This document shows, one piece after another, positions 45,101 to 63,300 of a stretch of 64,000 nucleotides of DNA (positions are counted from its first letter, which is position 1; each line of letters opens with the position of its first letter). The DNA comes from an uncultured Verrucomicrobiota bacterium. GTDB lineage: Bacteria; Verrucomicrobiota; Kiritimatiellia; CAIVKH01. The stretch spans positions 1-64,000 of the forward strand of contig CALMUP010000003.1 in assembly GCA_937872895.1 (NCBI GenBank), given 5' to 3'. A program made the translations under genes and the position numbers. The notes beneath the pieces are model-generated. The model was not told where the DNA came from, searched no databases, and saw only the letters and a program-made list of their open reading frames with translations.

Positions 45101-47881
45101 GCCGCCGACGGTGGCGGTGGTGGTGTTGGTGGCGGAACCGGCCACGGTGGCGACGGTGGCTTCGACCGAACCGGTGCCGCTGACGTGGAAGGCGACCTGC
45201 GGTTCATCGGGGTCGTTGCTGGCGACGAGCACGGCGGCGGTGCGCACGCCGGAAGCGGCGGGATCAAAGCGCACGGTCAGGTTTGAGGCACCACCGGGCG
45301 AAACGGTCAGGGGCAGCGAGGCGGGGGCGAGGATGGTGAATTCGGCGGCTTCGGTGCCGCTGGTGGTGATACCGCTGACCGAGAGGGCGGCTTCGCCCGC
45401 GTTGGTGATGGTGAAGGTGCGGTCCACGGTGCCGCCGCTGACCGGGGTCTGGCCAAAATCGGTGCCATTTACGCCGGCCGGAGTGTTGGTGGTGCCGAGG
45501 CCGGCGAGGTTGGTGCCGAGCACGGCGATCTGGGGTTGGGCGACGATGCGGAGCAATTCGGACCAGGTGTTGGCCACGCGGATTTCGTCGTAGAGGGTCT
45601 GGCCGATCGAGCCGTCGGGGGCGCCGAGGGCACCGGAGGCGAGGCGGATGCCGTCGATGCTGTTCGCGTGGCCGACAGCGAAGGTGCGGGAGACGTCCCA
45701 CGAGCCGGGTTCGGTTTCGGGGATGGCGGCGGTGCGGGCATAGACCTTGCCCTTCAGTTCGCGGGTGCCGAAGTCGTAGGTGCCGATCATCACGTACACA
45801 TTGCCGGTGCTGGTGTTGAAGTCGCCGAGGGTCGCGCCCGACACGGAATAGTCGGTGGCATTGCGCGAGGCGGTCAGGCCGAAGCGGTTGTTTTCGCTGT
45901 TGGGGATCTTGCCGATGAACACTTTTTCGGAGGTGTTTGACATCAGCGAGAAGCCGGCGAATTTCCACGGGCCCTGGTATTGGTAGCTGACCACGGCGGC
46001 GACGTAGAGTTTGCCGGAGGTGCGGGCGGGGAAACTGCGGGTGGCGAAGGGCTGGCCGCCGTTGCCGGGGTCGGCGACGCGGATGCGGTTGGCGGCCTTG
46101 GCCGGATAGTTGGTCTCGTAGGAGAGCGAGAAGGTTTCGGCTGTATAGGTGCCGGAGCCGACGGACCAGGCGCCGGACCAGCCGTTGCCGCCGTTGACGC
46201 CGTTCAGGGTCACGCCGTTGGTGTAGGCGACGGGTTCGACGATCTCGCCGTCACCGTAGGAGGTGGTGATCGCGGAGTCGGCGAGGCCGGGCGAGTAGTG
46301 GTTGTTGTTCACCGAGTGGAACGAATAGTAGTGGGTCGCGTTGGTGCGGACGATGTGCTCGAGGGCGGCCGCGCTGCCGTTATAGACCACGATACCGCCG
46401 CCGGGCAGGGCGTCGCCGGGGCTGTAGGCGGTGCCGTCGGCGGGGATGCCGGGGGCGCTGCCCTCGCGGTAGGCGATCAGCACGTTCTTGTCGGAGAGTT
46501 TCGTCCAGGCGAGGCGGACCATTTCGCGGCCATCGACCGTGGCGGAGGCGGCGGTCGGGTTCGGGATGTTGGTGATGATCCAGCTCAGGCTGACGGTGTG
46601 CGGGGAGTTCGAGGCGTCGGCCGAGGTGATGGTCACGATGCCGTTGCTGGTACCGGCGGACAGGCCGGTCGCGTTAAAGGTGATGGTTTCCTGCTGGCCG
46701 GCCTGTTCGGCGAGCTGGCCGGAGACGGGCGAGACGGACATCCAGGCCACGTTGGTGGTGATCGTGTAGTCGAGGCGGCCTCGGCCGACGTTGGTCACGC
46801 CGAAGGTTGCGTTGGCGGGGGCGGAGCCGACCATCGAGGTCACGGTGATCGAGACTGGGCTGCGCAGGATGCTGGCGAACATGCCGGTGCCGCGCACGGC
46901 GAAGTCATAGGGATTCTTGCCGGTCACGTTGTTGGTAAACTGCAGGGTGGCATTGCGCTGGCCGGAGGCCGAGGGGTCGAAGCGGACCTGGAAGGTGGTC
47001 GAGCCGCCGACGGCCAGCGAGGCGGCGGGTTGGGTAAGGACGATGAAATCGGCGGCATGGGTGCCGGAGGTGGTCACGGTGCCGAGGCCGAGCGAGGCGG
47101 ACCCGCTGTTGGTCACGGTGAAGGTGCGGACCAGGTTCGATTGGTTGATACCGACGGCGCCGAAATCGGTGTGGTCGGTGACCGTCGGGGTGGTGTCGCC
47201 ATCGGCGATCAGCGTGTTGTTGCCGAAAACATCGACGTCGGGGGCGGAGTCGGCAGCCACGGTGCCGAAGATGGCCAGGTCGATGCCCGACGATCCGAAA
47301 CTGGCGCCATCGGCAATGCGCGCGGTGCCTGCATTGTTGGCGGTCTTGAAACCATAGACGCGGAACTCGACCCCGGTTGAGCTGGTAATGCTCACCGTAG
47401 TGACGAAATTCGAGGTTGTCCCGGTATTGCGCCATTCGGCGATATCAGAGCCGAAATCGTCCACACTTGACCGAAGGACATAATTGGTCGGACCGGTACC
47501 GGAACGGGTGGTACGCCAGGAAAAATTGGTCACATCGATGAGGTAACCGGCGTCTGGAACAACGCGCAACGTAAAGTAGTCGTTGCTGGTGATCGCATTC
47601 GCAATGGTTGCCGCAGCGGGCATAGTCCAACTACTCGCCGACATGGAACCAGATGCCGAAGCCGCCACCAAGCCGGAACCGCGGGTGATGCGGGCATTCG
47701 GAGCTACCGTAGAGATATTCGCGGCCGCCGTGGTGTTGGTGGTGGTGTCCTGATTGCCGGCCAATCCGGTAAGGTCGAATCCGAGCAGCAATTCCGCTTG
47801 TGCGGGCCGGACAGTCAGTACAACACACAGGAGGGCGAGCAGCAGCGAAGGGATACGCAACGCCCGCGTCAGGTGGTCCAT
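30140..47881 (-). CDS. Giant secreted modular protein, ~5,913 residues
   Basis: A single uninterrupted frame. The signal peptide (LLLALLCVVLTVRPAQA) sets the start at 47881; upstream codons lack any signal. Approximate order: an N-terminal beta domain (30-215), choice-of-anchor-D (213-335), BACON-like (337-440), Fn3-like and jelly-roll module (443-777), a second anchor-D domain, several Fn3-like units, a third anchor-D/BACON/jelly-roll set (1446-1994), BACON plus jelly-roll (to ~2442), Fn3-like units, seven VDDDT modules (~2790-4494), a conserved terminal region (~4860-5217), then a tail of Fn3-like and putative-Ig units to 5913. It is Asn/Thr/Gly/Ser-rich. There is no LPXTG, PEP-CTERM or barrel. 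It is paralogous to the gene upstream and coupled to 29274. A surface adhesin or matrix protein is inferred. Confidence 0.88.
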   Translation of the reverse strand: MDHLTRALRIPSLLLALLCVVLTVRPAQAELLLGFDLTGLAGNQDTTTNTTAAANISTVAPNARITRGSGLVAASASGSMSASSWTMPAAATIANAITSNDYFTLRVVPDAGYLIDVTNFSWRTTRSGTGPTNYVLRSSVDDFGSDIAEWRNTGTTSNFVTTVSITSSTGVEFRVYGFKTANNAGTARIADGASFGSSGIDLAIFGTVAADSAPDVDVFGNNTLIADGDTTPTVTDHTDFGAVGINQSNLVRTFTVTNSGSASLGLGTVTTSGTHAADFIVLTQPAASLAVGGSTTFQVRFDPSASGQRNATLQFTNNVTGKNPYDFAVRGTGMFASILRSPVSITVTSMVGSAPANATFGVTNVGRGRLDYTITTNVAWMSVSPVSGQLAEQAGQQETITFNATGLSAGTSNGIVTITSADASNSPHTVSLSWIITNIPNPTAASATVDGREMVRLAWTKLSDKNVLIAYREGSAPGIPADGTAYSPGDALPGGGIVVYNGSAAALEHIVRTNATHYYSFHSVNNNHYSPGLADSAITTSYGDGEIVEPVAYTNGVTLNGVNGGNGWSGAWSVGSGTYTAETFSLSYETNYPAKAANRIRVADPGNGGQPFATRSFPARTSGKLYVAAVVSYQYQGPWKFAGFSLMSNTSEKVFIGKIPNSENNRFGLTASRNATDYSVSGATLGDFNTSTGNVYVMIGTYDFGTRELKGKVYARTAAIPETEPGSWDVSRTFAVGHANSIDGIRLASGALGAPDGSIGQTLYDEIRVANTWSELLRIVAQPQIAVLGTNLAGLGTTNTPAGVNGTDFGQTPVSGGTVDRTFTITNAGEAALSVSGITTSGTEAAEFTILAPASLPLTVSPGGASNLTVRFDPAASGVRTAAVLVASNDPDEPQVAFHVSGTGSVEATVATVAGSATNTTTATVGGNVTADGFAPVTNRGVVYKTTAGVTITDNKTQSGSGTGSYTANLTGLSVNTRYYFRAYAQNVAGTALGSELEFWTWANVPSAPTVGSPTISTLNVTVNENGNPTSTLFSIQTTNNNLFVQTNGTLGATEHWRTDSAWGTISVTGLGSGSNFGFRVRAQNGQGTITAWSALGNATTLANTPTVTTTTANPTNAFTATSGGNVTADGGAFVTNRGVVWAVSPSTPTVPGTQSTNGTGTGSFTSTITNLVAGQTYNYRAFAQNSAGTAYGATLSLTTPCFSGFVTGLYASVTNDQDFTAAWTAFVGASGYILDVSTSSTFTVAADGNYGVEVFTNMGGGTTTSYLTRQWTNNGVAWTGFLARTDQTIDGSAITLQNANGSYLISQVITGGIDELRVTHQLKFTGADSFDIFVNSTKVATNIVYGSSVLTAVVQNIGVSGDFTIMITNKSGGRVALDNLTWTNGGSAASFVPGYSNRTVAGTSQAVTGLTAGVTYYFRVFATNAFCTTLSSSTSSVTTLVIAPDIEVRGNNLAIADGDLTPNVNDHTDFGRVGLVNSNLVRTFTITNNGNATLTLNNVAVGGTHAANFTVISQPSLSIAAGGSSTFQIRFDPSAVGERNATVFITNNVTGKTPFDFAIRGTGVQAGIVRSPTTINVTTMIGSSTTAGFGVTNGGLGQLIYTVSTNAAWLTVSPTGVTLGESAGQQHTVTFSGSLLAAGVSNATITLADANASNSPQTIAVTLTLTNIPDPTAVVVTNDGPELNRLSWTAPSGLEVLVVHNATNPPSTPADGTSYSAGSTVGSDGSRVVYKGSASSVQHVVQPGVAQHYTFHAVNNNHYSPGVASNVVMATYPPNQSIDQFAYTNGVSLNGLNGGVGWTNAWSDSNPGAFTIQDLSFATQTNYPATAANKVLVDPPNNTERTAFRYFDAVTTGKVYIGFMMNFEFSGASKWSGVSFYNGGAEQLFFGETGAADQRLAVGGVTSDYNLNAGIGNDYLIMGFFDFDNDIAKVNAYFIGTQSVPETEPTGWAATNSGLSGITRIDGIRLASGSSAGTPGKTYFDEIRIGRSWNDIIPSSGDPGIGVSPTNISISVMQGSTPGNQSFGVTNTGFGILNHVISTNADWISVSPVSGSLSANAGQQHTITFATSTFAPGTSNATITITDATATNSPRTVAISVTVTAIPPPAAFSVRTDGPEMNRLGWASNNLAVLVLRNSTDTFTDPTQGVAYNRGDTIGSATVIHRSSTSAVEHIVSPGSTNFYRAYAINNDYYSSGVTVGSTTTVYRANEITEQFAYTNGVGATSPSLTGGWGWTSGWTSVAGTWTILSNNNAEISFPDEPLYPTNAANLIKLTDPGSATTGRMHRYFPAVTNGQVYIAGFVAYQYEGFSKFAGLSFMNGTVETGFFGKVSSPSHSFTLGIDTYGGARQFAAYDIRGLENSTNNTYLVVGKYDFDTDRLFVQAYYRGVSVPEIEPAAWAATATVSGVGITRIDGVRIHGGADVGTIGHAYFDEVRVATNWAMLINRDPPVVLTTIASATTDVSATSGGNVTSAGSSAVTNRGVVYGTASGPTIATNRINSGTGTGVFVSTLTNLIPGVTYHYRAFAQNTAGTSYGDEYTLVAQCFTSVVTGLFANPTNSTDFTANWSALPGASSYEIDVSSSGDFGASTPASIYTNDFEGVTKAAYASGTVVIAGATWWLHDALIGTSGSDVKNGANSARIQNTGSIGMQSSTNMGLSSITLWYATYGSDGSSAARVEYSSDGWTTWSTAGTFTASSGTLTAFAATNLNVTGSIAVRIIKTSGGGNRVNIDDIQLYGYGASSYVGGYENRPVAGTSVSVTGLVSGATYYWRVRPVSAGCTGGNSTTSSVTTVDNLGPELFAFNVSNVTNTDGAINAGFAVTGLVYDAGAGLSNAVGTPYFLIRNNLGTLIAASNKFTTAPANGSTVTGALAGTFGPVAPANVTLGIYTTTVGAVDRGGFGSTSNFTMTIVDDDTNIPEQVTILSTNTGGGSLRFMQIAIGAANITLGGGATTNLIYPTTDGALAGVSASNPLLFWLGARDDSGLNRGTTGPSTNMSFTLDGIVISNTANFDASRSSTFAGTSGTRPTNVWTWTAPFSSDDITTLMTNTVNGLGTNRISASLHDADNDRIGDSLSLIDRQYGYLVVTDDDTAPPVYSAMTVDDIGETPTLISESFEGLFPPTGWDQNSSFAGNDPRTGNSNVTFNGSGDWIRTPLLTTPSYITFWYKRSANSDSWSAVVEWSANPTGSWTTLSTISSISTSYQIYSNSLTAYTNIYIRIRDTRPSGSAERRIDDVEVGNREQQVVTDGQIAAGGYPVKALLQDTGSGIAVSNAWAPRFVILNTNSQVVVSNFFTTLFADGNTALQQLSNTVGAAISTNLVTLGTNTAFLYATDADNDRTDDRLSTTGGPLSVLVVDDDTDPPVPSGFQLAGATTNLDLTFSSVAITGVVTDASGLAFGGTSYLLVFDSLGGVVQSNALYAGAGSAVTATVFSAGLSCGEDYTVRVFAADADFDRPGDQLAVTQNVMVIRTTGVGTPSDYPRATNLLVNGSAASLAVNVTDAAIASGSWSLAMTLTHPIGVQTNSESPYFRVTNGLGIAIGATRWSNAFVSGTAIGFTNTTLPTVAFTNVALGTYAVVWSASNLGSCVASIIDRDVIDGGTNLFTVIDDDTAAPVLSAFAVNGSGSTIDVTTALSGFSVTGLVQDAGSGLAFTSQPAYFLFLDTSGAILASNTVTGLSEGAGLGSPVALTNWFSGLLLTCGNTYTVRVVAADADADRLNDRSTTNGVVLVITTSGAGGDSPNARDLLITNTPAASAFLTDAQISTGGWRMAMTISHPSGDIVTNGPGAPSYLVYNPSNLHAYTTTPLTWATIAKSGSDYFATNTMPAADYTSVMTGYYSIVWSAQSEGLCFGSTNASTTVSPGTNRFLVIDDDTNPPNFFGLNVGGGSGTGCGGPGVCPDPTRTNLVAGDIAIFAMNTLTRGSGPTATNMDAFAFVTLVDIPAGTRIRFTDNGWRSSTASFRNNEGTLVWRATNCVAAGTVVRWVATNTPVFNVGVLHQSLGSFSPNIQGEQILAYQGTDTNPQFIYALNDRLTGVWDVDAVDSHSSALPPGLVDGFTAVAVGEFDNVIINTNVLAIGGSREDILFYIGNQENWIGDDFAAFNLSAFNFTFPDVCSSAGTITDEDIFLGGWTITGLVQDVFSGVAVSNEAGLRYVVMNTNGGQVASNYFATTFPAGTTTLQSFSNGVAPGTYAFIQLGTYTAQVHVADTDNDRPFDAAARSTNIPFNVVDDDTDPPQIGFFTINGQTTLTNPAELVSVVISGQVRDTTSGIAFNTEPPVITVLDSFGGIAYTGLFTFSPTNDGDAVNWEPIITSSINLSGIADCGTYTVRVTVADADNDRVGDRLVVTQQFLIAVTDGSGAEPEASDFYVNDQPAATALITDGDLAAGGYSLAITISHPAGVAIDPPFTPTFTLRDPTATDVYSSDWSNIVTAGTTMYATNSPLEAIPYGSIHTGAYSLLWSARSLGACYGEVIDSAVIVGGTNRFIVVDDDRSGVPFSNLTYNSRSALLFATSFEDGEGWSNTVGSTYQTTAMTPLNGTWQLTSVAASTSDEPNTPDRNLRLVTGSLLELPLASQPGTLFYAARASSGTATNYITAEYATLLNAGWVAIGVTNAISGTNYATYSLPIDYTGIATVRLVAVSVASPSVYVDDLALTRYLSWTNTTAINLAWANATLDASGVYQYRYDHNPTSPPLTLTAGDLAATNNASFSSGDEGVITGYVFMVDNDNDRANDRARGMNVPYVTRIDLTPPAVITNLALSNDILDVADDTSEIKVSWNPPANETVGAGPRGDGEPLSPWYTYRIYYTDAETGPTSNDNYLAVSTEYPELGNIGTGSIIMSNLVMGIEYRIAVAGVDAAGNIGPLSDVETKRLNVFTITQAFVNASGDVVVQWVGLNDRPYDVIYTDATGYSDAINGSWRLAQTVIGTNFVDLGGLNEGSSSNRPHPRNLPYKTMRFYRVAPVNGWIPSLQRVGAASEQVIVAMNAELVNVNGVNGYNFIGKGMVPLVNTLEEFLGVNRLPAGNSIASATQVILYEPNAFGQPNATNYWLSSGAGPGWLSTVDDSPSDHVSLPATNRGFSIFVPSSTNLLLVGRVPWTNAEPVLILTSAYNILSLNMPRPTRVRELGDSLGLRTNLVWGLNVQRADEIRILQRGYGPYAQPKARIFVNTTGQFTFVTGGTGSAENFIIEADDAVIIHVKSNAVPYELDFSASQLYPPPQVEITNALPAAPTVQALAPINVSGSGATLLGTVNPNRLASTAYFRYGTTTNYGAVSATTNLPATNIALSVSLPITGLSPGTLYHIQLVASNSAGVSRFGTRTFITTCASVTITNTAMPNGTLSSIYSNRFGAAGGAAPYTFTISGGNIPSGLSLGANGVIAGTPSSAGVFSFLITATDSNGCFSSPAAFDITITNNCTVTSSVINVASVSAGTSTAAVTVAWNDGANEEGYQVWRHTVNLSAGASLIGTTVANATNYLDAAAVPGTVYYYWIKGTNCAGASAFGAGDAGYRRLATVTGVSASDDTYSTKVMLVWNDIDHETGYGIWRGTTASYGAASYLASVTANTTSYDDNSATAGVTYYYWVRATNSSSSSLSEEGTPDSGSRSIAGLPILSLPTVSNISANAATLGAQMDSFAGPLIARGTVWGVAPAPTGNSLAEGGTSSGAYSHVRSGLPAGTLIYYRGWGTNAVGIGYSGDGTFWTAPTNVVLIGATNRTSSGFTALWSATGGATNYLIDVSTTTVFSVYAPGYSNRLAGNVTSFSVTGLTAATPYYWRVRAQNAGGLGNYSLTNLAYTVAAEPTVQSSSLVFSNVTATNITVQWTPGNGSQRVLVGRMGSPINQFPADGTPYTGTNLFGAGSVLGTNHYILSVGTTSQVVVKGLDPGTTYFFRAFELNGSGQTVNYLTNNATGNPLGQATTP
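34400..39510 (-). repeat. VDDDT module array in the giant protein
   Basis: A run of about seven diverged units of ~110-250 residues. Each shows a G-L-V-x-D-A/T-x-S-G-x-A/V opening, an acidic A-D-A-D-N-D-R-x-x-D-R stretch, and a junction reading VVDDDTxPP. A distinct ~240-residue insert lies at about 35530-36240 (GDIAIFAMNTL; FVTLVDIPAGTRIRFTDNGW). Confidence 0.75.
40557..41262 (-). repeat. Jelly-roll-like module, copy 3 of the 5,913-residue protein
   Basis: Starts EITEQFAYTNG, contains LTGGWGWTSGW, YIAGFVAYQYEGFSKFAGLS and ITRIDGVRI, and ends near the FDEVRVATNWAML strand. Same unit as at 41900 and 45549. Confidence 0.75.
41900..42551 (-). repeat. Jelly-roll-like module, copy 2 of the 5,913-residue protein
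   Basis: Starts SIDQFAYTNG, contains LNGLNGGVGWTNAW, KWSGVSFYNG, MGFFDFDNDIAK and ITRIDGIRLASGSSAG, and ends YFDEIRIGRSWNDI. Confidence 0.78.
45549..46250 (-). repeat. Jelly-roll-like module, copy 1 of the 5,913-residue protein
   Basis: Starts EIVEPVAYTNG, contains LNGVNGGNGWSGAW, KFAGFSLMSNTSEKVFIGK, IGTYDFGTRELKGK and IDGIRLASGALG, and ends YDEIRVANTWSELL. Confidence 0.78.
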
Positions 47882-48344
47882 GGAATGGACAGAAGGAGTT
47901 CGGATTGTTCCAAGGTCTGGACCCACCCTAACGCAGCGTGATGATGCTGAAGCGTCACCCGGTACCGCTGGACATGTTGGCCTATTGACGTGGTTTCTGA
48001 TCATCCGTTTGGTTTCCGCTGCGGGCTCCGATACTTGGTGGATCAGGCCAACGCTTGATCGTGTCGGATAAACCGAGCAACTACCAGCCAAAAAGGAGGA
48101 GCCGCCGGTGCGGGCAACCCGCTCGGGCGTATCCATTCCACGATGTGATCGAAACGTTTTCACAATTGGGCGGGGTTTCCGTTCGAAGATCCCCCACTCT
48201 AGCCCCATACCAATACCTATCCTGTTTTAAAGGTAGATACGGGAGGGGTTAAATGGACGTGAGTTCTTGGTTAGGCCTGGATCAACGGCGGGGCATCCAG
48301 ACCCCAACACTCAACACATCCCGTTGTTCGTCAACAGGAAACAA
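47882..48344. other. Long leader/promoter region between the two giant genes
   Basis: No credible gene. It must hold the promoter of the 5,913-residue gene, but no convincing -35/-10 pair or ribosome-binding site is visible near the start. Two dyad-like sites stand out: TTCCAAGGTCTGGAC at 47908-47922 and the LacI-family-like TCGAAACGTTTTCA at 48149-48162. Confidence 0.5.
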
Positions 48345-48376: not shown

Positions 48377-48399
48377 GCCAATCACCCGTTTGTTCCGGA

Positions 48400-51300
48400 T
48401 TACGGGTTAAAGTTCTTGTTGGGGGGCGTGTACCAGAGCCGGTTGGTCCAGGTCATGGTGGCCGCGTTACGTCGGATGACGATGACGGCGTCGTCCGGTT
48501 CGATGATGAACTGGGCCGGGTCGGCGGAGGCGCCGGGGCCAGGGGTGTTGTAGTACTGCCAAGTGGTACCGTCGGAGCGGAGGCGCAGGCGGGCCTTCGG
48601 GTTCTGGAGCGAGCCGTTGCCGCCTTGCGACAGGATGCGCACTTCGTCGGCGAGCACGCCGTTGTTGTTGCCGGTGAAGCCGGAGCCGCGGAAGCCCATG
48701 CTGGAGATGGGCACGCGCACCGGCATGTTGTGGCTGAGGATGTGGATCCGGTTCGAGGCACTTGAGCCGCCGGCGATGACCTGGGTCACTTCCTGGGTGG
48801 GCACGAGGCCGATGATCATCATCGACAGTGCGGGGGCCTGGTTGGTCTGCGAGTCGCCGGGGATTTCGATCAGGAAGCCCTGGTCGAGCGGGACGAGTTT
48901 ATTGTCGGCGTTGCTGTTCAGCGGTCCGCCGATCTGCCACAGCCACTGGCCGGAGGAGGCGAGCCAGACCATGGCGGTCACGGCGCCATTCTGGTTGCTG
49001 GTGCCGCCGGCGGTCGGGCTGAACCAGGAGATGCGGGTCGATTCGGCCATGGTCGCGCCGCGCGGCAGGATGTTCGTATTGAACACGTAGGACACGGTGG
49101 CGGTATCCGGGATGAAGAACAGCGAGTGCCAGTTCTCCCCGGTGTACAGGTTGAGCGGCTTGGTGGTGTACACCTCGATACTGCCGCGGCGCAACGTATT
49201 GTTCGTGGTCCAGGCGCCTTGGCGCGAGACGCGGTAGAAGCGCAGGGTGTTGTTCAGCGTGGTCGGGCGGACACGGGCCAACGCGGTGTTGCCGGTATCG
49301 GTCATCCAGCCGGCGTTGGTAATCGTGGTCAGGTACTTCCACTGGTTGGTAAAGCTATCGCTCATCGACAAGCTGTCCACATAGACCACGTCGTAGGTGC
49401 GTTCCTCGTTCCAGATCCACTGGACTTCGAGGTCGGTATCCACGCGGTTGAAGCCTTGGGTCACGCTGAAGATCGTGGTGATGCCGGTGACGGTGACGGC
49501 GGGTCCGATGTTGCCGGCTTCGTCGCGGCCCATGATCGAGATGGCGTACCGGGCGTCGAAGTTCAGGTTCGACAGCACCATGTTGGTGAACAGGTGGTTG
49601 CTGAGCAGGTTCGACCAGCCGGCGGACGAGCGGGTCAACTCGGTGGTGGTCGGGCTGGAGATATCGAGCTCATGGTAGCGGATAATGTAGGTGTCCCAAT
49701 CCGACAACGGTGCGGAGTCGGACTGACGCCAACCGGCGGCCCGGGCGGCGGAGACGTGGTTCGACCAGATAACCTTGATCTCGGTGGTGTCGTCGATGGT
49801 GGCATCAACCACGGTGGCCGCTTCCTGTACCGCGACCGGTGGGTTGGTATCGACGCGGATAATCATATTGACCACGTTGCCCATCGCGCGGTCGAACGGA
49901 CGGTCGCTGTCGTCGTCCACCGCGAAGATGAAGCCGGTGATCACGCCCTGCTGGCCGAGGATGCTCTGGACCGCCGTGGTGAAGGCGGCATTGACCGGGA
50001 TGCCGTCGTTGGTGGTGGCCGGCGGGATGCTGCCGACGGCCGGCGGCACGATGTGGTAGTCCTCGATGCCGGAGTAGTCATCCACCGCTGCGGTCCAGTT
50101 GATGGTAATCTGGGCATTGGTCATGTGGTTCGTGCCGATCCAGGTCGGGCGCGAGTTGATAGCAATGTCATCCGCGTAAACCTGGGTGCGGAACACGCCA
50201 GCGGTATCGACGCGGCGGATGCGGAACAGGAGGTTCGAGCCGGGTTCGTCGATGTTCCACGAGTAGGGTACATAACCGGGCACTGTAACCAGGTTGGTGC
50301 CATAGCCCACCCACGAGGCGCCGTCCCACCGCTCGAGGGCCAGTCCGGGATCACCGGCACCGGTGCCCACGCGGCCGGCATAGATGGACAGCGAACCGGG
50401 GTTGCTGATCGGCGGCAATTGCAGCCAGGACTGGGCGAACGCGTTGGTCAGGAAACCGAGGCGGCGGGTGCCCGACTGTTTCGGATCCAACGAGGTGTGG
50501 GTCACGCCCTGCCCGACCCAAGCACCGTACGGATCCGTATTGGTCCAGATGACGCCGCTGCTCAACGAGGAGACCGGCCAACCCTGGCTGGTCTCGAAAC
50601 TGGAGGCGAGGATACTGTCGCCACCGGTACTTTCACGTACATCCACGGCGGACATGGTCGGGCCGGCCACGTCGTCATCAAGCACCTGGAGGAAACCGAC
50701 CGTGGTGCCGGCCAAGGTGGCGCGGTCGTTGAAGCGATCGTTATCCGCGTCGGGTACACGGATGACGACGGGTACGGAGCCGGTGGCGCTCGACCCGGTG
50801 CGGTGCATCAACTGGGTGATGATCGTAGCGGTCAGTTCGCCGTTGCCGAAGGTCCAGACATTGGTCTGCAGTACGTTGGGCAGGTTCGCGGCGGAGGACA
50901 GGGTCGCGTTGAAGCCGGTGACCACGCCGGACAGGATGTCGCCGATGCTGAAGCTCATTACGTCGTTGGTCGAGCCGGAGGCACCGCGGCTGATGCCGGA
51001 ACCGGTGTCGATGACGCCGAAGGCGAACTCGAGGCCACGTGAACCGGAGGAAGCCATTTCCTCGTCGGTGATGGCGAAGATGGTGTTGTTGCCCACACCG
51101 GAGCGGCGGTCGTAGGTGTTGCGGATGGTGGTATCGCCGCTGCCGATGGCGAAGCCGTTGGTGCCGACGTAGAACGAGCGGTTCAGCACGCTGATGCCGC
51201 CGTAGGTGATGTTCTGGTTGGTCGGCGCATCGACATCGTCATCCGAGATACGGATGTAGCCAAAGAGTTCGTCGAACAGGAAGGCCTGGTCGTCCACGCG

Positions 51301-54300
51301 GTCGTCGTCGGCGTCCGGCACGGTGGCGCGCACTTCGAAGTCCTGGCCGGCCGAGCCGGAGCCGTCGCCGCCCCACAGGTCGGTGATGCGTTGCCAGGTG
51401 AAGTTGGTGCTCGAGAACGACCAGGTATTGGTCGCGGTCGGGACCAGGGTGTTGGCCGAGCTCCTCGCACTGTTGAAGTGGGCGATGTTGTTGGTCACGA
51501 AGCCCGGCATGGTGATGCTCATGTTGGTGGTCGGGTCGCCATCGGCCGAGCGCTGCAAGCCGCTGTAGTCGTCGTAGGCACGCAGGCTGACGTCCATGCC
51601 GTTCGAGGCGAGTACGCCATCGGTCACGAAATAGCGGAACACCTCGCCGACCGCCTGGGCGGATGCCGGGGCGGCGCTGGTCAGCACGGCCATGCCACCG
51701 GTGCCGCGGACCGGCACGTTGGTGTCGTCGTCGTACACGTAGAAGCGGAGCGGCGTGTTGATGGTGATGGCGCGGTTGGTCGGCACGGCATCCCAGGTTC
51801 CGCCGTTGGGCGCGGCCACGGTGCCGCCGCCGGGGTTGTTCTCGGCCGACACGGTCACGAAGTACTGGTTCTCGAAGTTGATGTTCGTGATGTTGAAGGC
51901 CCGGTATTGGAACGTGGTCACCGAGGTGGCTCCGTTGACCCCGAAGTAGTTCGTGAAGAACCGGTCGAGGTTGAACTGGTTGGTGGCCAAGCCGATGGCG
52001 AGCGGATCCCAGTTGGGCGAAACGCGGGCATTCGGCGAGCCGATGTTGCGGTTGGTGGCCACGGCATTGGTCAGGAACACGCCGAGCGGGCTGTCCCAGC
52101 GGACGGCGAAGTCGATGTTGTTCACCGACTTCAGTTCGGCATCGCTCAGGTTGGTGACGACCTGGTCGTACACCGAGGCATTGTAGTTCGTGCCGATGTA
52201 CACCAGGGTCGGCACGGGGCCGTTCAGCTCGTGGTGCTGCGGGCGCAGGCCCCACATGACTTCCTCCCAGCTCGGGCCGATGCGGATGCTGTCGAAGGTG
52301 AAGATCTGGTTGTTGTCGCTGGCCACGATCTGGATGCCGTCGATGCGGTCGATGAACACATTGTTCATCTCCACGGACCAGGCCGCCTCGAGGTCCGGAT
52401 TGGCGTGGGCGAGCTGGCTCTGGGTGTAGGCGCGGGCCTTGAACTCGCGGTTGTTGAAGTCGATCATCGCGACAACCAGGTAGTCCACGCCGCCGTTCAG
52501 GCCGTAACCCGAGTTCGAGCCGTCGAGCTGGTTGGTGCGGACCGAGCCGTTGTATTCAACGGTCAGCCGCTGGTTGGCCACGCCGAAGGCCTTGCCGAAG
52601 AAGCCGGTGACGGTGGTTCCGTTCAGCAGGTTCACGCCCATGTAGTCGGAGTTACCCATGGTATGGGCATTGTTCATCTTGAGGGCGACGTACATGCGGC
52701 CGCTGGTCATGGCCGGGAAGTTTCGCCGGGCCTTGCGGCTGCCGCTGCCATCTTCCGAGGCGTTGCCCAGGTCGATGAAGGCGGAGCGGGTCGGGGGCGG
52801 CGTGTCGGGCGGGTAGGCCCCGAAGTCCGGATAATCGCCGGAACCGGTTTCCACCAGACCGCCGGAGGTGGACCAGGAATTGGTCCAGCCAGTGCCGCCA
52901 CTCTGGCCGGACAGGTTGACAAACGAACCGTAATCGAACCCTTCGTACACGAGGCCGAAGGCGGCGGTGGCGGTGCTGCGCGGATTGTTCACCGCGGTGT
53001 TGGTGTTGTAGTCCGAGCCACCACCGGTGCCGTTGAATTCGTACACGCGGAAGTGGTAGGTCACGCCGGGAGCGAGTCCGACCACGGTGACGGTGCTGCC
53101 GGTATTGCGGTACACGATGAAGTTGCCGGATCCGAGATGGGAGCCGCTGCCGAAGGTGGCATTGGCGGTGTAGGTCTGGCCATCCACCGGGTGCTGGTTG
53201 ACTTCATTGGTGCCGCGGACGACGACCATGCGGCGGGAGCCGTTGCCGTTCTCCCAGTTGAGGGTGACGGTATTGGTGCCGATGACCGAGAACACGATGT
53301 TGCTGGCCTGGAGGGTCGGCTCGTCGCAGGTGGTGCTGGCGGTGGCGGTGGCCGGGTTGTTGGTCATGTAGTTGATGGTCTCGCCGGAGGCGCTGTTGAC
53401 CCGGTACGGGAAGATGGCGAAGTGGTAATCCACGCAGGCGGTCAGGTTCGACTGCAGGAAGGTATCCACCGCACCGGGGCTGACCACGGCGATACGCGAG
53501 CCGGGCAGGATCTGGTTGTTGGTGTAGCTCACGCCATCAACCGGCACATCGGTAACCGCACTGCCGTTGCGGCGTAGGATGACGTAACCATCCGGGGTGA
53601 AGGTTCCGCCGGGAATCGTCCAGGTGTTGGTGATCGTGGTGTCGCCGCCGGTGAAGGCGTTGAAGTTGATCACGTCCTCGGAGGGCTCGATCTTCAGGGT
53701 CCAGCGGCTGCCGTTGAGCGGGGTGCCCGAGGTCAGGTAGTCGGTGCTGCCGCTGCTGCCGTTGTACTCGAACACGCGGAAGAAGTACTGGGTCTCGCTG
53801 TTCAGCGACACGAAGTCGACGCTGGTGCCGGAGCCGTTGTAGATGACCTTCTGTCCGCCACCCAGGTCGGTGCCGGCGCTGAAGTCGGCGTTGGCGGTGT
53901 AGTTCGATCCATCCACCGGGGTGAAGGTGACGGCGGAGCCTTCGCGGGCGATGACGATGCGGGCGGCACCGTTACCGGGGGTCCAGCCGACGGTCATCGA
54001 CGAGGTGGTGATGTTCGCGAAGGTCATGGCCGAGGCGTGCAGGGTCGGTTCGCTGCTGAACTGGTTGAGCAGGGTTTCCCAGGTGCGGGCTACGCGGACT
54101 TCGTCGAAGCACAGGTTGCCGACGGCGCTGCCGGCGAGGCGGATGCCGTCGATGCTGGCGATGGCGGCGTTCGAGCGGACCAGGCTCCAGGTATTCGGCT
54201 CGGTCAGCGAGAGGGTATCGCCGGGGTTGAAGGCGCGGGTGCGGATGACGTCGTTGTCGAAGTCATAGTACAGCACGATCAGGTAGGTGGACTGGTAGAT

Positions 54301-57300
54301 GCCGAAGCCGGACTCGGTGGAGGAGCCGCCGAAGTCGATACCGAGCCACTGCGAGTTGAAGATCTTGCCCGCGAAGACGCGCTCGGTGGATCCTTCCATG
54401 AACGAGATGCCCGCATAGCCATTGTTGTCGTTCGCGTCCTTGCGCATGGCCACGGCGGCGAAGAGCTTGCCGGTCGAGACGGCCGGGAAGTGGCGGCGGG
54501 CGGTGATTTCCGAGGCGGTGCTGCCGCAGATCCGGTTGCTGACCGCGGCCGGATAGTTGTTCGGAACGGCCAGGTTGGTCATTGTGAGCGTGAAGGTCGA
54601 GCTGTTCCACGCGTTGGTCCAGCCGGTGCCGCCGGTCAGGCCGTTCAGCGCGGTGCCGGCGGTGTTGGTGAACGGATCGACGATCTCGTTCACGAAGTAA
54701 CCGATGACGGTCAGGTTGTTGGTTACGAAGCGGGTGCCGTTGGTCTGGTTGCCGGCGAGGGCGACCACCGCCTGGTAGGTGCCGGGGTTCAACGAGGCGA
54801 CATTCACCGCGGCGGTGTGGATCTGCGACTGGCCGTCGTTGAGGGTCACCGAGGTGTTCGGGTTCACGGTCAACCAGCCGGAGCCGCCATTGTAGGTGAT
54901 CGAGGCGTTGTAGATCAGCGGGCCGACACCGTTGTTGGTGACGGTGAAGTTCGGCCAGGTGCCGCTGCCGCTGACCGTACCATACAGCGAGGTGATGTTG
55001 AGCACGCTGGTATTGACCTGCATGCCGGCCAGGCTGGCGCCGGCCACGACCTCGAAGGTGAACTCGTTGGTGGCGATGGAGCGGTCGCTGGTGCGGTCGT
55101 TGTCGGCGTCGGCCACGATCACGCGGGCGGTCCAGGTACCGGTGATGGCGCTGGCCACCGGGTTGTTGTTCGAGCTGCCGATCACGGTCAGCGTGGTCGC
55201 ACCGCCGTTGCCGAACGGAACATTGTTGAAGGCCTGGCGCAACTGCATCACGCCGTTCGGATCCCACAACTCGAAGTAGGGCGAGCTATTGGGTTGGACG
55301 GTGTTGGTGCCGTTGACGTTGATGCCGCTGTTGCCTTGCGACGAACCGTCGACAACGCGGCCGGTGATGGACCAGAACGAACCGGAGAGCAGTTCGACCA
55401 CGCTGGCGGTGTGAACGCCTTCGGTACCGCGGATGGCGAAGTTGGTGATCAGCGGCGGCAAGGTGTCATCATCCGTGACGACGAGCCAGCCGTGCTGCTG
55501 GTCGAGCAACGAGTCGCGGTCATTGGCGCGGTCGTTGTCGGCATCGCGCCAGGTGATGGTCACGCGGTTGCTGCCGACCACGCCGGAGGCGGCGTTGGTG
55601 ACGAGGTTGTCGATCTCGCCGGGAAGCATCGCACCTACCCACGACCAGACGCTGGTGGCGGAGGTATTGGTGGTGTCGCTGAAGCCCGAGCTGCGGGTAG
55701 TATCCCAGTTGAACACGTTGCTGACGATGGCCGAACCGATGGTCAGGAACGACTGGCTTTCCGCATCGGTGGTGCCACGCGACAGGCCGGAACCGGCATC
55801 GCGGGCGCCGAAGTAGAACACCAGCGGGGTGGCGTTCGACACGTGGTTGGCCAGGTAATGGTCGGTCAGGCGGAAGGTGATGTTGGTGCTGCTGGTGCCG
55901 CCCACCGAGCCGACGGCGGTGTTGTTCGACGAGAGCTGCATGAAGCGGGTCGAGCTGGTGAACTCCGGCGAGTGGATGGCCATCACGGTCGGGGCGGCGG
56001 TGTCGTCATCCACCACGGTGAAGGTGATGGCGGTGCCGTTCGACAGGGCGGGGTTGTTGATGCTGGTCAGGCCGTTCGACGAGATCGCGCTCCAGCGGCC
56101 GGTGTAGGTGCCGAGCACGGTGTCGGCGAATCCGACGACCGACTGGGTGTTGTTCGAGGCCCGGACGGTCAGGCCGCCGTCGATGTAGGTGAAGGCATTG
56201 AACTGGCGATCGGTGATGACCTGCACGCCGAGCGGACTGAGGATGTCGTAGTTCGGGATGAAATACGGAGGCGTGGTGTTGACCGTCTCGATGCCGGCGC
56301 CGGAACGCAGGTCGAGGGCGACGGTGTAGGTGCCGTCGCGGATCTGGCCGTCGAACACGTAGTTCGTGGCGTTGCCGATCACGTAGTTGGTCGCGTACGG
56401 ACCGCCGGTCAGGCGGAGCAGGTCGGCCCAACTGGTGGCGACGCGGAGTTCATCGAAGTGTACCTCGCCGTTCCAGCCGATATCGGCGCTGGCGCTGAGG
56501 CGGATGCCGTCGATGCGGGTCGCCGAGGCGTTGGTGGCACCGGCAAAGTAGGTCGGCTCGATGGACGGCACAGACGTGGCCGAGTCATAATAGATGGCCA
56601 TCAGGGTCTTGGTATTGAAATCAAACCGGCCGATCAGCAGGTGTTCATTCGCGGCCGGGAAGCTGTTGGCCGCGCCGAAGAGGCTGCCGCCGCTCGGGGT
56701 GGAAGCACCGAACTGGTCATCACCACCGCCGCGGTGACCGAAGAAGCCCACTTCGGTGGAGCCGCTCATCAGGCTCACGCCACTTCGCTTGTTGTCGCCG
56801 GCGCCTTCGTTGAACTGGCGGCGGTACAGCACGGCAACGTACAACTGGCCGGAGGTGACTTCGGCCATACCGCGGGACGCGCTGTAGGTGGTGGAGTTGG
56901 TGGTCTTGATGACCAGGCGGTTCGCCTTCTCATCCGGCCACTGCGGCTGGAAGGCGGAGAAGTTGCCGCTATCGATCACCACATCCACCGGGGCGTTCGG
57001 GGCGGAGGTGGTCCAGGCGTTGGTCCAGCCCTGGCCGCCGTTCAGGCCGCTCACCGCGACGGCATTGGTGTAGGCGAACTGTTCGACGAGTTCACCCGCG
57101 CCATAGACTTCGGTGGTGGCGGAGGCGGTGACGCCGGTCGAATAGAAGTTGCCGCTGTACGAGAAGAATTCGTAGTGGTGGGTGGTCCCCTGCCCGACGA
57201 TGTGCTCGAGGCTGGTGGCGCTGCCCTTGTAGATGACGGTGCCGCCGCCGAGGCTGTCGCCGACGTTGTAGGGCGCGCCCTGGACCGGGTCGCCCGAGAC

Positions 57301-60300
57301 GGCTGCGCCGGCACGGTGCACGATCATGACGTTGGTATAGGTCTGGGTCCAGGCGAGACGGACCATTTCCTTGCCATCGGCGACGGCGGTCTGGTTGGTC
57401 GGGTTCGGGATGTTGCCGTCCACGGTGATCCGCACCGCGCGGTCGGTGTAGGTCACGGTGCCGGTTACGCCACCGAGCCAGTTGATCGAGGCGAAGGTGC
57501 CGATGACCGCACTGCTGTTCAAGCTGGTCACCACGGTGTAGGTGCCGGCGGCCCACGGGCCCTCGTTGCTGATGGTCAGGGTGCCGGCAACGGTGATGTC
57601 GTCCTGGACGAGGATCGGGGCGAGGCCGCTGTTCACGAAGGTAACGCGCAACTCGGCGGCGGCGCTCTGCATGGTGAAGTCCTCGGTGGTGCCATCGCCG
57701 ATGGTAATCGACGGGGCGGAGCCGACGACGTGGAACACGCCGGTTCCGGTGCCATCGGACGAGCCGAGCAGGAGGTTGTGGTCGGTCGTGATCACGCCAC
57801 CGGTGACGGTGTAGAAGCCGAACGATCCGGCGGTTGCACCAATGTTGAAGCTGGCGGTGCCGCTGACCAGGTCGAGGGTACCGCCGGTCTGGGTAACCAC
57901 GCCGGTCGCACCGGAGGCGAAGCCGACGACGAACGGGTTGTTCGCGATGACCGTGCCGTTGCCGCCGATGTTCAGGGCGGCCAAAGCACCGGCCTGGGTT
58001 CCGAGGTCGATGTCATGGGCCTCGAGTACGCCGCCGGTGACGGTGGCGGTGCCGCTGAAGTCGATTTCGAAATCGGACGTGCCGGATGCGACTACGCGGC
58101 CGCCACCGACCAGCAGGGTTGAGCCGGCGCCGCCGGCATTATCGGACAGGCGGATAATACTGCCCGTCACGGTACCGCCGTGTACCGCCATCACACCGGG
58201 TGCGTTGTTGCCGATGATGATGCTGGAGTTCGCCAGGAAGTCGCCGCCGGTGATCGAAACGATGCCGGTCGAGTTCGCCGTATCCGCGACTATCAATTGA
58301 CTGGTCGCGATCACCGATCCGCCAGACATGTACATGGCACCGAAGGACGGGTTGCCGCCGGTCGCGGTGCCGAGACGGACGCTGCGGCCAACGGAAACCG
58401 TACCGCCGTTCACGAACAGGGTGTTGGTGCGGGTGCTGTTGGACAGGTCGCCGACGATGATATCGGCGGTGCCGCCGTTCACGCTCACGGTGGCGGCGCC
58501 GCCGACCGTCATCAGGCCGAGACCATTGCGTCCGACGCGGATGGTTGGGGTGTCAACACGACCGCCGGTGACCTCAAACCGGCCGGTGGAATTGACATTG
58601 CCGTTGCCCATATAGATCTGCGTACCGACGGACAAGACGCCGCCGGTCATGGTGTAACGCCCTTCGGTGGCGGTTAGTTCGCCGATGGACACCGTGGCAA
58701 CCGTTACCGTACCCGCGTTCTGCAGGAAAACCGCGCGGTTGTTGGCGTTGCTCATACCGATGTGGATATTGCCGGCCACATCAATGCGTGACGCAACGCC
58801 GTTCACGATGGCGGTGGAGGCGCCGGCGGCGCCGACGATCATGTTGACGCTGGAGGTGAGGGTACCACCGCTCATGGAGAATACGGCCACGGAATTGTTC
58901 GACTGGCCGAGGATCAGGTTGCTGACCGAGAGTGAACCGCCGGTCTGCAACAAGGTTCCGGTAGTGCCCGAGTGACCGATGAAGAGGCTTGCCGCAGCAC
59001 GGCCGGCGGTGGCGACGACACCGGTGTAGCTGTTGCCGATGAAGGCGTTGTTGCTGAAGGCCGGTTCGGTATCGGCGGTCCAGTTCGCGGCGGTGTTCCA
59101 GTTGCGGTCGGCGCCGCCACCGGCATCCCAGATGTAGGTCGGGGGCGCCTGCAACAGGGCGTCCCAGGTGGTGGCGATGCGGATCTCGTCCCACCGGGTG
59201 ACCACGGTGCCGGAGCCGGACTCGAGGCGGACGCGGTTGATGCGGGTCGGGTCGGCATCGGTGATCTGGGCGTGGGCGGCCGGCTCGACCGACGGGATGC
59301 TCTGGGTCGCGTTGGTGAAGATCCAGCCGCGGGCGATGTCGTTGTCGAAGTCGTACATGCCGATGATCGTGTAATCCGTATCATTGGCCAGCGTGCCGCC
59401 GTTCTGGACGTTCAGGCTGCCGCCATCGACGGCGAACATGTTGACGTTGGTGGCACCGCCGCGTTCACCGTAGAAGATCTGCTCGACCCCGTTGTTGAAG
59501 AAGCTGAGGCCGGCGTAGCCCGAGCCGTTGCTCACGCGGAACTTGTAGGACACGTACAGCTTGCCGCTGGTGTACTCGGCGAATTCGCGGTAGGCGGAGG
59601 AGCTGGTTCCGGTCACCACGTTGCCGGCGTCGGCCGGATAGCCGGTGATGGCGGAGAACAGGGAGGTCGAGAAGCCGTAACCGCCGGACGACACGGTCCA
59701 GGCGTTGGTCCAGCCGATGCCGCCGTTCACGCCGGACAGCGAGGCGTTGTTGGTATAGGAGAACGGCTCGATGATCACGCCGGCGCCATAGACGGTGGTG
59801 GTGGCACCGACGGTGGTGACGGCGGAGTAGCGGTCGTTGTTGATCGTGTACACGTTGTAGAAGTTGGTGCTGCCGGGCTGCACGACCTGTTCAAAGAACG
59901 AGGCGGAGCCCTTGTACACGACGCGGCCGCCGCCGAGGGTGTCGCCGAGGTTGTAGGCGATGCCCTGGGTCGGGTCGGCGCTCGGGGCGTTGGTCTGGCG
60001 GCTGACAATGAGGATCTGGCGGCCGGACGGTTCGGTCACATCCACGCGCACAAACTCGGCGCCGGACGGGGTCGCGCTGACCACGGTGGGCGGCGGGATG
60101 GCGGTGACGACGAGGGTCACGACGATTTCCTGCGCGGCATTGGTCTGGTTGCCGGCCACGCGGTTGGTCGCGGTGTAGGTGCCGGTGGCGGTGAACGTGG
60201 CGGAGGCGACGTGGCCGGTGTGGATACGCACGCCGGTGATGCCGAGGCTGTTGTTGGTCGGGTTCGCGGCGAACCAGCCGGTGGCGCCGGTGCCGTAGGT

Positions 60301-63300
60301 CTGGAAGTTCGTGTAGATCAGTGTTCCGGCCGAACCGACGTTGGTCACGTTGAAGGTGGAGAGCACGTCGGGGTTGCTGCCGAGCATGGCGGTGTACGAA
60401 AGGGTCAGCGGACCGACGGCCAGGCCGGGGGCGGACGGGGGCTCGACCACCGAGAACGAGATCACGTTGGTGCTGCGCAACGAGTCGTCGGTGCGGTCGA
60501 TGTCGTAATCGACGGCGAAAACGGTCAGGGTGTAGGCACCGGCGACCATCGTGGCCAGCGGGAAGTTGTTGCTGACCAGGCCACCGGCGGTGGCGCCGCC
60601 GTTGGCGAAGTTCACCGCGAACACGCCACTGCTCACTGCCGAGCCGTCACGGGTCAGCACGAAGGTGTTGCTGTTGGCGAACAGGCCGCTGAAGGCATCG
60701 GTGACGGTGCCGGTGACCCAGAAGCCGCCGGTGAATTCGTTGTTGGTGTACACGGCACCGCTGAGAGCGCGGCCCTGGCCGATGAAGGTGCCGATGACCG
60801 GCGGCGTGGTGTCGTCGTCCACGACGGTAAACACGGTCTTGGTGCCGTTGGACAGGCTGTCGGAATTGGAGGTCAGCACGCCGTTCGAGTTCGCGGCGGT
60901 CCAGCGCGAGGTGTAGGTGCCGAGGGTCACCGAGGCGGCGACGGCACCGGCGTGGGTGGCGTTCGAGCTGAGCAGCACGCGGCCGGCATCGCTGAAGGTG
61001 TTGTTGGCAAAGGCCTGGTTGGTCAGGATGCGCGTGCCGGCGGAGTTCCAGATGTCAAAGCTCGGCAGGCTCGCGGTGTTTGAGATGCCGGCACTGTCAT
61101 AGAAGGTGAAGACAAACGGATAGGCGCCGGAGGCGACCTGAGCATCGGTCACGTTGCTGCCGCCGTTGATGGCGTAGCTGGATGCCACGGGGCGGGTCAG
61201 GCGGAGCAGGTCTGCCCACGACTGGGCGACGCGGACCTCGTCAAAGTAGGTTTCGCCGTTCCAGCCCGATGAGGCGCCCGACGCGAGGCGTATGCCGGTA
61301 ATCTGGGCGGCGGGGGTCCCGGAAACACTCACGGTGAAACTGGGTTCCGTCGAGGGAACAGCATCACCGCTATTGTAGAAGATACCGTTCATCGTGCCGG
61401 AGGCGAAATCGTAACGGCCGATGATCAGGCGATCGACACCGGCCGGGAACGAATCATTCCCGCCGGAGGTCACCGGGGATCCGCCCGCGTCCACACCGAA
61501 GCGGTCGTCGTTGCCCGAGCCGCCGGGTTCACCGACGAAGGCGATTTCGGTGCTGCCATTCATGAAACTGATACCGGAGAACTTGCCGTCGGCACCTTCG
61601 TTGAATTGGCGACGGTAGAGGGCGGCGACGTAGATCGAGCCGGTGCTGACCGAGGGGAACCCGCGGAAAGCGGCATAGGTAACCGAGCTGGTGGTGGCGA
61701 GCAACAGGCGGTTTCCGTTCTCGGTGGGCCAGAAGGGTTGGAAGGTTGAGAAGTTGCCCGAGTTGATCACGGCGTCGGTATTCGTGCGGGGCACGCTGAT
61801 GGTCCACGCATTGGTCCAGCCTTGTCCGCCACCGAGGCCCTGCAGGCCGACGGAATTGGTATAACCGAACTGCTCGACGAGTTCGCCGGTCTGGTACACC
61901 AGCGTCGTCGCTCCGGCGCTGACCACGGCGGAGTAGTGATCGTTGTTGATCGAGTAGAAGGCATACAGGTTCTCCGAGCCGGGCTGGACGACGTGGTCAA
62001 GGCTGGCGGCGCCGCTGTTGTAGAGGATGACGCGCGAACCATCGCCGAAGGTATAGCCGGCGGAATAGGTTGTGCCGTTGGTCGGCACGGTCGGTGCGTT
62101 CGTCTGCCGGTGGATGATCATGACATTGTAACCGGCATCCTTGGTCCAGGCCAGGCGGACCAGTTCGCGACCGTCCGGCGTGGCCGTCTGGGCGGAGGGA
62201 GCGGGAATGGCGGAGATCGTCCACGAGACGCTGACGGTCTTCGGGCTGTTGGTGGTGGCGCTGTCGCCGGTGATCGTGATGGTGGCGTTCGAGGTGCCGG
62301 GGGAGATGCCGGAAACGAGTTGGACATGGGCGGTGTGGACGTTGCCCGCGCCGGCGGCGGCGGTGAAGGTGTTGTTGCTCAGGCGCAGCCAGTTCGCGTT
62401 GGTGGCGAGGGTATAGGTCATCGAGCCGAGGCCGACGTTGGTGACCGCAAAGGCCTGGAAGGACGGCGACGGCAGCGAGCCGAGCACGGAGGAGAAGGCC
62501 AGCGTGGTCGGGAAGTTCGAGATGCCGCTACCGGCGCCGGTCCCCTGGATGCTGAAGTTGAACGGGTTCTCGGTCAGGCCGTCCTCGAAGGCGTCATCCG
62601 TGGTGGAGAAGCTCAGCGCGGCGGAGCGCAGGCCGGCCGCCGACGGATTGAACTGGACGGTGAAGGTGGTGGTATTGCTCGGGTTCAGGGTCGAGGCCGG
62701 CTGGGCGGTGACAATGAAGTCGGCGGCGTGGGTGCCGGAGGTGGTCACGGTGCCGAGGGACATCGCACGGTTGCCCGAGTTGGTGATGGTGTAAGTGATG
62801 TTCGAGGTCGCGCCGTTGACGCCAACCGAACCGAAGTCGGTGCCGTTGGCGGTGCTCGGGGAGGCCGAGCCATCGGCAATGGAGACGCCGGAGACGGTCA
62901 CGGCGATCTCCACAAAGGTGCCGGTGCCCTGGACGCGGAAGGTGTAGGGATTCTTCGCGCTGGCGACGGTGCTGGTGAACTGGATGTCGGCGAAGGCGGT
63001 GCCGGAGGTCGACGGGTTGAACTGCACCTGGAAGGTGGTGGTCGCGCCGATGGCCAGCGAGGCGGCGGGCTGGACGGTGACGATGAAGTTGGTCGGGTTG
63101 CCGCCGGCGTTGGTGGTGACGTTGCCGATGCCGAGCACGGCGGCGCCGCTGTTGGTGATGGTGTAGGTGCGGGTCAGGGTTCCGCCGTCGATGAGCACGT
63201 CGCCGAAATCGGTGTGGTCGGCGAGGGTCGGGGTGGTATCGCCGTCGGGGATCAGCACGTTGTTGCCGAACAGGTCGAGGTCCTCGAGGGCGGCAACGAC

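Follow-up and report, generated by a model that had tools for sequence, protein, structure and literature searches.

The repeated module carried by this window (the whole stretch of 64,000 nucleotides that was analysed, on contig C3) appears from its sequence profile to be a member of an unnamed ConA-like beta-jelly-roll family, distantly akin to fungal Cip1 (Pfam PF21340) and, according to a structure model, related in fold to the X122 domains of CAZy. Our favoured reading, to which we give a probability of about 0.55, is that it represents a new, probably non-catalytic Cip1/X122-like family whose members act as ligand-binding modules of giant proteins outside the cell. All ten copies lie in two adjacent giant genes, A and B, whose products have signal-peptide-like N termini and would be secreted by the uncultured Kiritimatiellia bacterium that carries them. 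The features are as follows.

C3 48400-70542, minus strand: giant gene A, 7380 aa, seven modules, start beyond the window
48400..64000, minus strand: in-window part of A
C3 65815-66444, minus strand: module copy of A, upstream of the window
C3 64462-65178, minus strand: module copy of A, upstream of the window
61936..62535, minus strand: BACON-like (62254-62535) and fn3-like (61936-62208) domains before m3 (Pfam BACON_2/fn3)
61195..61896, minus strand: module m3, A residues 2883-3116
59830..60435, minus strand: BACON-like (60139-60435) and fn3-like (59830-60099) domains before m4
59143..59790, minus strand: module m4, A residues 3585-3800
57145..57411, minus strand: fn3-like domain before m5, without BACON
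56407..57105, minus strand: module m5, A residues 4480-4712
54739..55035, minus strand: BACON-like domain before m6
54058..54699, minus strand: module m6, A residues 5282-5495, penultimate position
53023..54045, minus strand: three fn3 domains between m6 and m7
52246..52965, minus strand: module m7, A residues 5860-6099, last position
48403..49662, minus strand: shared C-terminal region of A, ending ...EPDDAVIVIRR...WTNRLWYTPPNKNFNP and stop
30140..48208, minus strand: giant gene B, 6022 aa ORF, three modules
46298..46882, minus strand: BACON-like and fn3-like domains before m8
45542..46258, minus strand: module m8, B residues 651-889
42605..43189, minus strand: BACON-like and fn3-like domains before m9
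41891..42565, minus strand: module m9, B residues 1882-2106
41312..41890, minus strand: BACON-like and fn3-like domains before m10
40547..41266, minus strand: module m10, B residues 2315-2554
32225..33457, minus strand: C-terminal-type region of B, same as that of A, then ~690 further residues with fn3/He_PIG domains

The sequence-only reading had claimed eight copies, and all of these are present on the minus strand, 4-10 bases away from the low-end coordinates given for them; the true total however is ten, because of the two copies upstream of the window, and the interval assigned to the set (45549-61889) omits m9 and m10, at 41.9 and 40.5 kb. A search of 80 kb in all six frames, and of the remainder of the 3.87-Mb genome, gave no additional copy. 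The order of landmarks proposed for the module holds across the copies, which share 26-56% pairwise identity (most of them only 26-45%; the nearest copy to m5 is m3, at 56%). Leave-one-out profiles, built from nine copies and searched against the tenth, recovered every copy with E-values between 2e-39 and 4e-71, while reversed copies did no better than 0.17, and the similarity is therefore far above chance. Using the residue numbering of m9, the columns invariant in 10/10 copies are G23, G24, G26, W27, W31, P53, R74, G82, G102, F114, G116, F152, E173, I190, D210 and R213.

The module has no match among the Pfam, NCBIfam or PHROGs models, in agreement with the earlier statement that no named family could be recognised. 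The guess of a ConA/LamG-like jelly roll was also borne out at the level of fold, since the AlphaFold2 model of m9 (pLDDT 89.4, pTM 0.89) is an all-beta ConA-like jelly roll. Structure comparison with VIA-align and Foldseek placed X122, GH131, PL14 and GH16-like enzymes, calreticulin and legume lectins among the nearest solved folds, with VIA-align Z values of 15.6 for TtX122B, 15.5 for GH131, 15.1 for PL14, 14.8 for calreticulin and 14.7-14.9 for legume lectins. By sequence, the only credible match of a 53-row profile (A3) to a solved protein is Cip1 (3zyp, E=8.2e-6), which covers profile positions 25-220, end to end. Re-aligned, A3 scores 26.8 bits against Cip1 while 500 Cip1 shuffles reach at most 11.1; the window copies alone score 8.7 bits, no better than shuffles, so that the match requires the broad profile, and with Cip1 as a single sequence hhalign reaches a probability of only 20%.

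In this alignment Cip1 W10 and W15 fall on module W27 (43/53 rows) and W31 (51/53), Asn40, a loop residue, on N58 (36/53) and Asp206, a bidentate ligand of the structural calcium (PMC3764139), on D210 (51/53). The module thus keeps the calcium-binding aspartate and the two N-terminal tryptophans of Cip1, but the proposed lyase residues Arg100 and Gln104 (PMC3764139) are replaced, the former mostly by Phe and the latter variably, and in the ethylene-glycol pocket, to which Glu194 and Tyr196 belong (PMC3764139), the glutamate becomes Gly and the tyrosine position is variable. The conserved Trp/Asp signature had been put forward as a possible glycan patch; since its counterpart in the Cip1 alignment is the structural calcium 'grip', GG-x-GWTNAW is probably part of this region rather than a binding site and more likely stabilises the fold. 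A single structural calcium ion probably stabilises the module, which is probably non-catalytic.

An enzymatic role, as a PL20/PL14/GH131/GH16-type polysaccharide lyase or glycoside hydrolase whose active site has moved, is improbable in our judgement. The presence of GH131, PL14 and GH16-like enzymes among the nearest folds and the Pfam name of the Cip1 family, 'Polysacc_lyase-like', could suggest it, but the positions of Cip1 Arg100, Gln104 and His98 are Phe or variable and, of the near-invariant acids, E/D8 is N-terminal and D210-E211 are in the last strand, D210 being aligned to the calcium ligand. We give similarly little credence to a divergent LamG domain (Laminin_G_3, PF13385) overlooked by its model. 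The fold class is identical, the last strand FDEIRIG resembles that of LamG_3 (e.g. DDVRLY in L117) and bona fide LamG_3 domains occur frequently in the same genomes, but 0/10 copies match PF13385 at E up to 10, hhalign against 20 same-class LamG_3 sequences gives a probability of just 1-3% over only ~30 columns, so that LamG was not sustained by sequence, and the N-terminal GG-x-GW-x-x-W part aligns to Cip1 instead.

Copies do multiply, as the identity of m3 and m5 and four tandem copies in genome G002 testify, yet it is very hard to credit that the repeats have expanded recently or neutrally with no function, or that they are an artefact of assembly. Identities are mostly low, as given above, and position-specific conservation between genera is strongly supported: in the tree the last modules (7 rows, 100/100) and the penultimate ones (7 rows, 100/99), m7 and m6 included, cluster across genomes by position and not by protein, being closer between genera than modules inside one protein. 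The tail order d-d-b-J-f-f-f-J-C recurs in seven ORFs of five genomes. With dS near saturation, dN of 0.12-0.49 points to purifying selection, and independent genomes repeatedly show open frames of 10-22 kb.

A pure spacer, in which jelly rolls and the neighbouring BACON, fn3 and Ig-like domains merely extend a rod, is unlikely but deserves more attention. The jelly rolls alternate with usually structural domains, the usual unit being BACON, fn3 and module, with the module last in most units; no pocket of a known binder is kept; X122 domains failed to bind any plant cell-wall polysaccharide tested; and DUF1735, a polysaccharide-utilisation domain, is proposed to be a membrane-bound spacer in a paper which also treats BACON and LamG (PMC11216935). 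However, distant relatives occur singly, without a rod to extend, on small exported proteins with PEP-CTERM or T9SS tails or on FecR proteins, and the last two positions retain their own sequence in relatives, a feature for which a generic spacer would have no use.

The preferred reading of ligand-binding modules draws on the fold, the link to Cip1, the unit architecture, the grouping by position and the purifying selection described above, and fits into the following picture. Both giant ORFs have signal-peptide-like starts: A begins with a signal peptide (...AGSAHA before T) and a PATR/beta-helix-like part, and B likely starts at an internal ATG before DHLTRALRIPSLLLALLCVVLTVRPAQA and E. Export is further supported by a count of only 7 cysteines in the 7380 aa of A and by the PEP-CTERM or T9SS tails of relatives. 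Against the picture, neither A nor B yielded a surface anchor of a known type. The two proteins would be extended extracellular fibres or adhesins, in which BACON, fn3 and Ig-like domains form a rod bearing the jelly rolls as repeated putative ligand-binding heads, polysaccharides or surface glycans being the likeliest ligands and many weak contacts together giving binding strength. The predicted role of the modules is probably to help these long proteins hold sugars or surfaces.

The sequence-only reading had described eight copies of a jelly-roll-like repeat of about 210-235 residues (hereafter the module), and all eight were found at the positions it gave, on the minus strand; the true total, however, is ten, since two more copies lie upstream of the window. 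The copies are carried by two adjacent giant ORFs, namely gene A (contig C3, 48400-70542), which encodes 7380 aa with seven copies, and gene B (30140-48208), which adjoins it and encodes 6022 aa with three. Their pairwise identity is 26-56%, and in a leave-one-out test the profile of nine copies recovered the tenth at E-values from 2e-39 to 4e-71. With these nine-copy profiles no further copy scored in the six frames of 80 kb, and the rest of the genome is without any copy beyond the ten. Outside the modules the giant proteins consist of HYDIN/ASH Ig-like, DUF1573, BACON_2, fn3 and He_PIG domains; their N termini resemble signal peptides, and gene A starts with passenger-type PATR repeats and encodes only 7 cysteines in 7380 aa. 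The long ORFs that run antisense to the giant genes on the plus strand (e.g. 54037-58122) were taken as shadow frames because all the recognised domains fall in minus-strand frames. Rfam gave no match in the window.

We then consider whether the module belongs to a described family. The earlier impression that it matches no named family held: the ten copies gave no convincing match in Pfam-A, NCBIfam or PHROGs, a profile built from them found no match among PDB sequences, and a search of open-access papers turned up no description of the module. Concerning LamG, whose type of fold had been suggested from the sequence, membership was not borne out at the sequence level, with neither a PF13385 model match nor profile-profile similarity. 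A divergent LamG_3 was likewise rejected, as hhalign gave a probability of only 1-3% over about 30 columns against twenty LamG_3 sequences, picked with PF13385 from genomes of the same class. Laminin_G_3 (PF13385) does share the ConA-like sandwich and a similar last strand, and is common in the same genomes, but it spans about 150 aa compared with 210-240, its N-terminal half is unlike that of the module and there is no profile-level similarity.

The guess of a jelly roll was confirmed by structure prediction. AlphaFold2, given the copy at 41891-42565 and an alignment of the remaining nine, returned a model with pLDDT 89.4 and pTM 0.89, containing 13 strands of at least 3 residues and one short helix. 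In comparisons with Foldseek and VIA-align this model fell among the ConA-like jelly rolls, with the two-sheet beta-sandwich of the ConA-like lectin/glucanase superfamily (Z of at least 8 for 794 of 1000 chains). The VIA-align Z was 15.6 for a domain of the sialidase BT_1020, 15.5 for GH131, 15.1 for PL14, 15.1-15.6 for X122 of Teredinibacter and 14.6-15.0 for calnexin/calreticulin and legume lectins. Since many unrelated functions are found at the same Z level, the fold alone is uninformative on function. The ConA-like lectins (legume lectins, the calreticulin globular domain, ERGIC-53) share the overall fold at a Z of about 15, but identity in the structural alignments is 2-12%.

A more specific relationship emerged from a broad 53-member alignment of the module family (A3). 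Searched against PDB sequences, its profile gave one significant match, Cip1 (3zyp, E=8.2e-6), colinear over the whole module from the GW-x-x-W motif through the FDEIRI strand. Re-aligned, Cip1 scored 26.8 bits, whereas 500 shuffled versions of its sequence gave 11.1 at most. It should be noted that this signal requires the full family: it is weak with sub-profiles, the copies from the window do no better than shuffled sequences when used alone, and hhalign against the single Cip1 sequence is weak. The fold result agrees with the literature, in which a distant similarity to Cip1 had already been noted for X122, a top fold match here (PMC10916295). A distant relation of the module family to Cip1 and X122 is thus supported.

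The calcium ligands of Cip1 are Asp5, Glu7, Ser37, Asn40 and Asp206, and cleft residues have also been proposed (PMC3764139). In the 53-member alignment the position of Asp206 is D in 51 sequences and that of Asn40 is N in 36, Ser37 is not conserved, and the tryptophans W10 and W15 align with W27 (a Trp in 43/53) and W31 (51/53); the cleft residues Arg100, Gln104, Glu194, Tyr196 and His83 are not conserved. Because the Asp206, Asn40 and Trp positions are kept and the cleft residues are not, we predict, from this one profile alignment, that the GG-x-GWTNAW signature is part of a calcium-holding N-terminal grip, and the module probably lacks the lyase site that was suggested for Cip1.

The Cip1 core of Hypocrea jecorina (PF21340, "Polysacc_lyase-like, Cip1-like") resembles the module in its colinear profile match, the N-terminal W..W, the bidentate calcium ligand Asp206, the bent-finger Asn40 position, the jelly roll and secretion. 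It differs in that Arg100, Gln104, Glu194 and Tyr196 are lost in the module, single copies fall short of the PF21340 model, and Cip1 has one core domain with a carbohydrate-binding module whereas here the modules form arrays in giant proteins. Even at an E-value limit of 10 the PF21340 model matched none of the ten copies; it had no match in eight searched genomes that carry the module family, and no match passed its cut-off among the 369 genomes in the class to which genome G260 belongs; a plasmid search for more Cip1 relatives gave no match. X122 (CAZy; Teredinibacter turnerae; 8q28, 8q29, 8q2a) aligns over 183-187 residues, is also found in large modular secreted proteins and has a calcium-stabilised jelly roll of its own. 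However, identity is 7-11%, X122 occurs in redox proteins that contain cytochrome domains, and X122 conserves an inner-face Arg118; none of its chains was among the A3 matches to PDB sequences at E up to 10.

When genome contigs were scanned for relatives of the module, 74 loci were returned. Close relatives belong mostly to Kiritimatiellia and other Verrucomicrobiota MAGs, where module-bearing ORFs reach 6900 aa in the DNA stretches examined, while distant ones have one or two modules together with PEP-CTERM tails (Planctomycetota, Opitutaceae) or T9SS tails (Flavobacteriales). Of 241 genomes from the phylum, 59 gave matches to A3; within the class, a close profile, built from the ten copies, detected the family at E<=1e-20 in 33 genomes out of 146, and the ORFs concerned are large with few exceptions. 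The longest of them, in a related genome, encodes 12857 aa with three modules (G669:C14:169887-181175). A viral origin of the module was rejected, as 0 viral contigs encoded a relative of the ten-copy profile. Among the distant relatives, FecR proteins with a terminal module were found in Rhodopirellula, Aporhodopirellula and Haloferula (L072:1272-2990, L087:8441-10153, L074:8873-10414); at the outer end of such proteins the module may be the sensor head in anti-sigma signalling.

The giant ORFs also have a C-terminal region in common, and gene B is followed by further genes:

48403-49662, minus strand: shared C-terminal region of gene A, about 400 aa, common to giant ORFs
32225-33457, minus strand: shared C-terminal region of gene B, about 400 aa, common to giant ORFs
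29274-30143, minus strand: exported-looking protein directly downstream of gene B
26058-29252, minus strand: second, larger exported-looking protein directly downstream of gene B
25034-25981, plus strand: IS200-like Y1 transposase-type gene, a short distance downstream of the giant genes

In most gene-A-type ORFs this region closes with a conserved tail, YxPPxxNFxP-stop, and the fuller last stretch conserved in most giant ORFs reads EPDDAVIIxRRxPxxxxWTNRxxYxPPxxNFxP-stop. Among the 146 genomes from the class, 36 contain this region at E<=1e-20; of these, 29 belong to the 33 that bear the module (Fisher p=8e-20, kinship ignored). The same genome holds two further giant ORFs with this region (on contigs C17 and C20), and small ORFs match it partially (C9:136801). 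Its AlphaFold2 model is poor (pLDDT 57); the region may serve in attachment or sorting. Both exported-looking proteins have a D-rich, calcium-repeat-like DxDxDG stretch and, after it, a short C-terminal tail; the larger also has Calx-beta domains. Giant extracellular proteins are known from Apilactobacillus kunkeei (Giant1-5; PMC12863079), and giant genes have been reported in PVC lineages, with Omnitrophota, Elusimicrobia and CG03 named (PMC12057145). Neighbouring genes and products of thousands of residues are shared features, whereas the Kiritimatiellia giants have their own common C-terminal region and module; no description of them was found in the papers searched.

In local models the usual unit is BACON-fn3-module (7 of 10 copies); the fifth copy is without BACON, the sixth without fn3, and three fn3 domains precede the seventh. 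The tail d-d-b-J-f-f-f-J-C (b, BACON; J, module; f, fn3; C, C-terminal region) is shared by seven ORFs from five genomes, one ORF having a d inserted before C, and paired neighbouring giant genes also occur in genomes G001 and G005. In G005 a giant ORF is interrupted by a frame change inside the C-terminal region (C1:136713-137357), which reflects either a genuine disruption or a mistake in the assembly. When 40 modules were placed in a tree, those in last position grouped together (7 rows, 100/100) and those in penultimate position formed a clade of their own (7 rows, 100/99), both despite different genera, while upstream modules multiply within lineages, as with four in genome G002. For the last module dN is 0.29-0.49 between genomes, at a dS near saturation, and 0.12 within G001, which indicates purifying selection.

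The giant proteins are thus exported-looking and built of beta domains, with jelly rolls that are position-specific. The BACON, fn3 and Ig-like domains would form a long flexible rod, along which the jelly rolls would serve as binding heads whose weak contacts sum. Polysaccharides are the likeliest putative ligand because of the fold and the partner domains. The jelly rolls could instead be pure spacers, and since tests of X122 against plant cell walls were negative (PMC10916295), this explanation is given a probability of roughly one quarter. If the jelly rolls do bind, a bolder and rather improbable reading would make the giants position-coded glycan readers: each position would have a fixed, differing sugar specificity conserved across genera, the string would recognise a particular mixed polysaccharide or partner cell, and new specificities would arise at the variable N-terminal end.

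The module is a new, sizeable family of known fold. This unnamed domain family is present in about a quarter of the sampled genomes of the Verrucomicrobiota phylum, as well as in Planctomycetota and Bacteroidota. The orphan proteins Cip1 and X122, whose structures are solved, are now tied to a large, testable bacterial family, and a repeat unit is defined for a little-known class of giant Kiritimatiellia surface proteins.
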